A DNA stretch of 64,000 nucleotides from a bacterium BMS3Abin14 (GTDB taxonomy: Bacteria; BMS3Abin14). Made by a program: the position numbers and the translations under genes. Each line of letters starts with the position of its first letter. The stretch's first letter is position 1. Shown here piece after piece: positions 16,947-56,247 of the stretch. Under the pieces are notes generated by a model, which saw only the letters and a program-made list of their open reading frames with translations, did no database searches and was not told the DNA's origin. The stretch spans positions 62,001-126,000 of the forward strand of contig BDTG01000010.1 of assembly GCA_002897695.1 (NCBI GenBank), read 5' to 3'.

Positions 16947-18443
16947 TCAGCTCGGATTCTCGGAGCATACCGACACCCTGTCCCTGATATAGTTGAAGTT
17001 GTCACTATGAGCGTTGGTGTGGCAGGTGCGGCAGACGCTTGCCTTCGGGATCTTCACCATGTGGTACAGATCGGGTGAGGAGGCATGGAGAGATCCCATG
17101 CCGTGACAGGCCTCACACTGGACGCTGAGGAGATCCTTTCTCGGCCGGGCTGGAGCATACCCTGTGGGCCGTAGATACCCGGTGACGTGGCAGGGAACGC
17201 AATCCGGGTCGGCCTGGGCGTCCTTGCGGCCAAGCGACTGGATGGCGGTTGAGTGCGGCGTTTTATTCCAGAATGCATACCGTTTCCTGTGACAGTCCAT
17301 GCATAGGTCAGAACCTGTATACCTTATCGCCGGGTTTTCCGTATAGTTTCCGGATGCGGCCTTGCCCGCGTTCTCCTTGAGACTCCTTCGATAGTCTCTG
17401 ATCATGGCGGCGATCTTTGGATCGTCCATAAAGGATGAAGACAGGGATACCATGTCGCCGTCGTAGCGGGTCCTCTTTTCAAGGCCGGCCAACTCTTTTT
17501 CAAAGCCACCGGCCTGTCCGCTCCCAGGCTTGGATGGCCCCTTGTTCTTTTCGGAGGCCAACCGTTTTCTGAGGAAGTCGATCCTCGGCCCCGACGCCCA
17601 CCCCCTGCCGGACCAGGCAGGTCCGTTAAGGTGCAGGAGAAGTTTACCTGCTGCCCTGCCCTGAAAATACCCCGAGGTGATAAGAGCGCCGCTCTCCTCC
17701 CTGGGGTTCTTGAGCCATGTCCGGCTTCTTCCGCCGACTATGACATCAATCCCCTTGACGGCGCTCGCCAACTCCCTGTCCTCTGGAAAACCTATATGGG
17801 TAAGGGCGATCACCAGATCGGTTTTCTTCTTCAGCTCGGGAACAACTCTGGAAGCGACCTTGATGGGATCATCTACCCAGATGTTCGGTGCCCGGTGTTC
17901 CATGAGACCGACATCCACCTGTCTGGAGGTCAGCCCGAACACTCCGACCCTGGCGCTGCCCACGTCGAAGATTGCCCATGGTTCGAAAACAGGCTCTCCT
18001 GACGAATTCTTCACGTTGGCGGAAAGGAAATGTATTTTGGTGGATGCTGCAAGCCTCTTCAGGTTTTCCAGCCCCAGGTAAAGATCAAGTTCCCCGACTG
18101 CGGCCGCCCGGTAACCCATCGTTTCCATTGCCGCAAGAATAAGTCTGGCCTTCTTCAACGTCGGCCCGATGGATGCCTCCGGAAGTGGTTTTTCAGCGAA
18201 GAGGTTCCCGGAATCCAGCAGCAGAGTGGGAATCCCGTCTCTTTTTTCCTGGCGGATAAATGTGGCCCGGCGGGGTAGCCCCCCCACCTGCGCCGTCCTT
18301 CAGCCGCACGGGTCGAGCGCGCCGCCCACATCTCCGGTGTAGATAATTTTAACAGGACCCACCGCTCTTTCCTCGGAGCTGCAGCTCGACAGGATAAAAA
18401 TCGGCAGGATCACCATGAGAAACATGTATGTGGTGTGTCGCAT
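16947..18443 (-). CDS. 5'-nucleotidase-like tetrahaem cytochrome c lipoprotein with predicted selenocysteine 48
   Basis: A 498-residue exported protein. Residues 1-21 are a lipoprotein signal ending in lipobox LSSC (Cys21). Residues 31-300 follow the UshA/5'-nucleotidase-like metallophosphatase layout (IIYTGDVGG..., LLLDSGNLF, THIGFPEDRELA, VIVGGRSRTW). A c554-type domain has four CxxCH haem sites at about 381, 415, 443 and 471. An in-frame TGA (18302-18300) falls in LDPCG-TGA-RTAQVGGLPRRAT. Relatives, as I recall them, read PCGC..GGLARRA here, so UGA replaces a conserved Cys. A SECIS-like hairpin follows and selC lies in this window. Without recoding, only a fragment from GTG 18287 with no signal peptide would be made, unable to mature haem. 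Substrate unknown; likely periplasmic redox role. Confidence 0.8.
18269..18302 (-). promoter_or_regulatory. candidate bacterial SECIS element with the UGA codon
   Basis: After TGA (18302-18300) come 11 bases. Then GGTGGGG pairs with CCCCGCC (seven pairs, one wobble) around loop GGGCTA. Distance, stem length and G at the loop start fit the loose bacterial SECIS consensus bound by SelB. Confidence 0.65.
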
Positions 18444-18713
18444 GTTATAATAGTCCAGAGTCCAGAGTTGACAGACTCGTCCAAGGTCCGATGTCCCAAG
18501 TTCAACGTGCCGCGATTGTCATCGCGCCTGTCACGTCGCAGCCTCGGCGAAGACGGAAACCCTGCCAATTGTCAATTCCTCACCCATCGCCTATTGCCTG
18601 TTCCCCATTGCCTATCGCCAACACCTCGATACTTCGACACCTCGTTACTTCGATACTGTTTTCTCCCCTCTGGACTCTGGACACTGGACTCTGGACTGTC
18701 TTTAAGACACATT
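18444..18713. repeat. intergenic stretch of degenerate GGAC/GTCC word repeats
   Basis: No gene is visible. The stretch is made of short imperfect reiterations such as TCCAGAGTCCAGAGT, CCAAGGTCCGATGTCC and TGGACTCTGGACACTGG, with runs like CCTATTGCCTGTTCCCCATT. Similar text occurs at about 13262-13296, 15843-15900, 49520-49560, 52316-52352 and 59600-59656. Confidence 0.55.
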
Positions 18714-56149: not shown

Positions 56150-56247
56150 TGGCGGAAGTGCATGGGAATCGAACCCACCGTCCCGGGTGTTAACCGGGAC
56201 CACTGGATTTGAAGTCCAGGAGAGCCACCAGTGCCCTAGGCACTTCC
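56150..56247 (-). tRNA. selC: tRNA-Sec (anticodon TCA)
   Basis: About 98 bases including CCA. Eight-base acceptor GGAAGTGC/GCACTTCC, anticodon loop CTTCAAA within CTGGA/TCCAG, long variable arm (GGTCCCGGTTAACACCCGGGAC), T-arm GGTTCGATTCC. The size, long extra arm and TCA anticodon identify selenocysteine tRNA, so the organism decodes UGA as Sec. Confidence 0.95.

Follow-up and report, generated by a model that had tools for sequence, protein, structure and literature searches.

The gene described here lies on the minus strand of a 64,000-nucleotide stretch of the bacterium BMS3Abin14 genome, hereafter the window, and is predicted to encode a selenocysteine (Sec)-containing lipoprotein with c-type haem sites. 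Its frame runs from an ATG at 18443 to a TGA at 16949-16947, and the sole interruption is another TGA, at 18302-18300, which is codon 48. With this TGA read as U, the translation is MRHTTYMFLMVILPIFILSSC..DPCG-U48-RTAQVGGLPRRAT.., which opens with a hydrophobic segment and a lipobox. The initial annotation had described a frame from this ATG through the UGA and on for 450 further residues with four CxxCH sites, as translation confirmed, and had expected a standard gene caller to start at GTG 18287 and drop the signal peptide, as the ORF finder indeed did (446 aa). Short direct repeats of the GTCCAGAGTCCAG type are found upstream of the gene, at window positions 18460-18700. The features are as follows.

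16947-18443, minus strand: gene for an UshA-like (seleno)protein, family NF041198, with four haem sites; 498 residues including Sec48 (reading frame, profile match, orthologues)
18381-18443, minus strand: predicted N-terminal signal peptide with lipobox ILSSC (Cys21); in an orthologue of the same genus, conservation reaches back to Met1
17622-18353, minus strand: UshA/CD73-type metallophosphatase-fold domain with a degenerate metal site (phmmer, Foldseek, alignment)
18306-18308, minus strand: codon of the partner Cys46, which forms a C-G-U pair with Sec48
18300-18302, minus strand: in-frame TGA, predicted Sec48 (codon comparison among orthologues and wider relatives)
18269-18288, minus strand: SECIS-like hairpin with a 7-pair stem and the loop GGGCUA, 11 nt after the UGA, overlapping the spurious GTG 18287 start
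17289-17303, minus strand: CxxCH haem site 1, CMDCH, residues 381-385 (motif; Pfam Cytochrome_C554)
17187-17201, minus strand: CxxCH haem site 2, CVPCH, residues 415-419 (motif)
17103-17117, minus strand: CxxCH haem site 3, CEACH, residues 443-447 (motif)
17019-17033, minus strand: CxxCH haem site 4, CRTCH, residues 471-475 (motif)
56150-56247, minus strand: tRNA-Sec gene (selC), 72.7 bits against RF01852

The protein scored 343.4 bits with the profile NF041198 (UshA_like_PCGU), whose cut-off is 275 (335.6 bits in the genome search), and it has the PCGU motif at residues 45-48 and a C-terminal haem region with the four CxxCH sites. The match falls in two stretches, model positions 2-269 and 344-518, the second of which is the haem part, so this part too belongs to the described family.

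A search of 12 genomes of the bacterial family, which are also the whole sample of the phylum, recovered eight orthologues including the window's own, the other seven being 44-79% identical to it over the protein. Their orthology is backed by synteny, as the order mlaD-radA-(GHL13 lipoprotein where present)-selenoprotein gene-dus-ntrB-ntrC is kept. Codon 48 is TGA in all eight, which span several genera, and because the triplet recurs in independent assemblies a sequencing error, which the initial annotation had named as a possible refutation, is very unlikely. Among the ten codons 5' of the TGA, three first, three second and nine third positions vary in the orthologue alignment, and this concentration at third positions indicates that selection acts on the protein encoded upstream of the TGA, in the frame that continues after it. 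Coding conservation is thus seen both before and after codon 48.

The genome also encodes the machinery for Sec insertion. Profile searches found selA (574.7 bits), selB (361 bits) and selD (355 bits), all above their cut-offs, where the initial annotation had proposed to look for them, and the selC that it placed at 56150 was recovered as the tRNA-Sec gene listed above; selB is present in all seven near-complete genomes of the bacterial family. The selD gene of this genome (contig C8, 25519-26442) itself contains one in-frame TGA, so its selenophosphate synthetase is probably a selenoprotein as well. We give hardly any credence to the idea that codon 48 is a true stop or an error, with a signal-less protein translated from GTG 18287, or that the gene is decaying: the standard ORF call of 446 aa agrees with it, but the TGA in every orthologue, the coding conservation from the signal peptide up to the UGA and the Sec machinery all oppose it, and the short form would lack the export that c-type haem attachment requires.

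The hairpin just 3' of the UGA, for which the initial annotation had given the seven pairs, the G-led loop and the 11-base spacing exactly, has the stem GGUGGGG/CCCCGCC and a minimum free energy of -23.2 kcal/mol (z = -2.4 relative to dinucleotide-shuffled sequences). All seven pairs can form in 8/8 orthologues, and at one stem position two orthologues belonging to different genera have a compensatory A-U pair in place of G-C; since six of the seven stem pairs never vary among the eight orthologues, covariation by itself lends the hairpin weak support. We also compared the hairpin with random synonymous recodings that leave the protein unchanged, in 43 Sec and 34 Cys members. Hairpins were stronger than their recodings in the Sec set (mean z of -0.79 in Sec vs 0.09 in Cys members; Mann-Whitney p = 4.5e-4, an optimistic value, given that the sequences share ancestry and are not independent). 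Hairpins that qualified, with G within the first two bases of the loop, occurred in 98% of the 43 Sec vs 53% of the 34 Cys members. The loop codon GGT was found in 18/42 Sec vs 7/31 Cys members, a difference that is suggestive only (Fisher p = 0.085). An Rfam scan of the region returned chance matches only and none to a SECIS family. These comparisons support a role for the hairpin as a predicted SECIS.

For a wider view, 290 genomes were searched with NF041198, and the loci were fetched and profile-aligned, which gave 77 relatives whose residue at the position of interest is Cys or Sec; many of these score below the NF041198 cut-off and are best regarded as motif-bearing relatives, not all of them formal members. 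The initial annotation had placed Sec48 where relatives have Cys in a PCGC motif, and the alignment bears this out: the codon is TGC or TGT in 34 of the 77 and TGA in the other 43. The position of the partner Cys46 is Cys in 75/77. On a quick tree of the relatives, parsimony required about 13 changes between Sec and Cys; strongly supported branches force two of them, and many forks are weak. Sec and Cys thus swap at codon 48, as is expected of a genuine Sec site. Together with selA, selB, selC and selD in the genome and a predicted SECIS directly after the UGA, as bacterial selenoproteins have, this comparative evidence makes it very probable that the UGA is read as selenocysteine in a secreted lipoprotein of the NF041198 family.

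A scan of contigs with two narrow peptide patterns yielded four close relatives, all from MAGs, and the best matches listed in a tblastn search of plasmids were ordinary UshA-type nucleotidases with about 23-30% identity. In one relative's genome tandem paralogues stand side by side, one with TGA and the other with TGT at the Sec position. Gene clusters around the more distant relatives of the selenoprotein showed no recurring functional partner, and the neighbours kept around the orthologues are mlaD, radA, the GHL13 lipoprotein where present, dus, ntrB and ntrC, so gene neighbourhoods name no substrate.

Foldseek placed the N-terminal domain in the UshA/CD73 fold (E = 9e-21), and phmmer matched it to 5'-nucleotidases. 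In the alignment, however, the D-x-H, GD, GNHE and GHxH motifs, which we take to be the metal ligands of UshA and CD73, read D-V-G, GN, GELD and GRSR, leaving two of eight canonical residues (D38 and H216), fewer than an active 5'-nucleotidase has. The Asn-His catalytic pair of UshA was found in none of the 77 motif-bearing relatives, and the His of DxH is absent from all 43 Sec members. Canonical residues are more often kept in the seven relatives without C-x-C/U, three of which have all eight. Given that Asn-His is lost in 77/77 and the Cys46 position is kept in 75/77, what the family conserves is the C-x-C/U pair and not the phosphatase site. The description "5'-nucleotidase-like" in the initial annotation therefore holds for the fold, but as a statement of activity it is probably wrong, since most metal ligands are lost, and the "5'-nucleotidase" label probably misleads. 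In the predicted structure, residues 39-51, which form the loop with Cys46 and Sec48, have pLDDT below 50, and the whole haem part is likewise of low confidence.

Pfam matches in the C-terminal part were to Cytochrome_C554 and Cytochrome_C7. At least three CxxCH sites follow the motif in 33 of the 43 Sec members; the other ten lack three downstream CxxCH, so the haems are not needed in every branch. Near the C-terminus, Cys493 (VC[SE], window 16965-16967) is conserved in the orthologues of this clade, and more distant members often have His there; Cys493 is possibly an exchanged haem ligand. This genome also carries other CxxCH proteins, which match NF041198 weakly (contigs C4, C13, C19, C30, C32 and C42).

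We favour the interpretation that the protein performs selenol/thiol redox chemistry in the periplasm, on a metallophosphatase scaffold that is no longer active, and that its haems serve as an electron relay. The phosphatase fold would no longer hydrolyse phosphate esters, and Cys46-Gly-Sec48, in a loop just after a former metal-ligand position, would carry out redox chemistry of the selenenylsulfide/dithiol type on some periplasmic or envelope substrate, while the four C-terminal c-type haems would deliver or remove the electrons of the Cys46-Sec48 pair. We regard this mechanism, selenol/thiol redox by Cys46-Sec48 with a haem relay, as reasonably probable. A broader and more tentative proposal, to which we would not yet commit, is that NF041198 may be a distinct oxidoreductase class in which the metal chemistry of a metallophosphatase scaffold has given way to a Cys-x-Sec/Cys active site. 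In most Sec members this scaffold would be fused to a four-haem relay, directly linking thiol/selenol chemistry in the envelope with the flow of respiratory electrons through haems.

Two other functions were weighed against this redox role. The C-x-C/U pair could bind a metal or metalloid (e.g., Cu, Hg or As), with the haems a separate electron carrier; two S/Se ligands lie close together in a loop beside the former metal site, as such a function would have it, but frequent exchange of Sec and Cys is typical of redox-active residues, and the genes conserved next to the orthologues include none for metal resistance, so we consider metal binding unlikely. We think it less likely still that the protein functions as a metal-dependent 5'-nucleotidase or a SoxB-like hydrolase, with Sec doing no more than modulating a haem-linked regulatory disulfide: fold and sequence match CD73, UshA and SoxB and a few ligands are left, such as Asp38 and His216, but all four ligand motifs are altered and no relative has the Asn-His pair.

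The initial annotation knew of no described selenoprotein of this architecture, a claim refuted by the NF041198 match above cut-off and by published lists. In 2008 the Global Ocean Sampling selenoproteome counted "COG0737, UshA-like, CxU" (PMC2398784), a 2022 review lists an UshA-like CxU selenoprotein family (PMC9312934), and a 2026 review lists an UshA-like selenoprotein family with NF041198 (PMC13188914). Judged from its sequence, the protein is a convincing further instance of a family listed since 2008 and not a new kind of selenoprotein. In the literature searched, the coverage of which was incomplete, we found no description of metal-site loss or haem coupling in UshA-like selenoproteins. 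What is added here is a functional argument, that the UshA-like family would be one of redox proteins built on an inactive phosphatase. The family goes under the names "UshA-like" or COG0737, yet across the sampled members the metal site is degenerate and C-x-C/U is kept, so haem-coupled thiol/selenol redox is a better target for assays than nucleotidase activity.

Compared with NF041198, the protein has the same PCGU motif, UshA-like domain and C-terminal haem part, and differs only in coming from a lineage that appears to be little sampled and in having GN, GELD and GRSR where metal ligands would stand. Its match to UshA-like (seleno)protein family 2 (NF049981, a model of 262 positions) is weak and covers residues 31-117 (50.7 bits, below the cut-off of 140). 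The ExtKL multihaem (seleno)protein (NF040886) is likewise a selenoprotein with multiple c-type haems, but the match to it extends over one haem segment only (13.4 bits vs a cut-off of 250) and leaves the N-terminal part unmatched. With the UshA and CD73 5'-nucleotidases and the SoxB thiosulfohydrolase it shares the fold of the N-terminal domain; unlike them, it lacks most of the metal ligands and catalytic His residues and has a haem domain in the C-terminal part.
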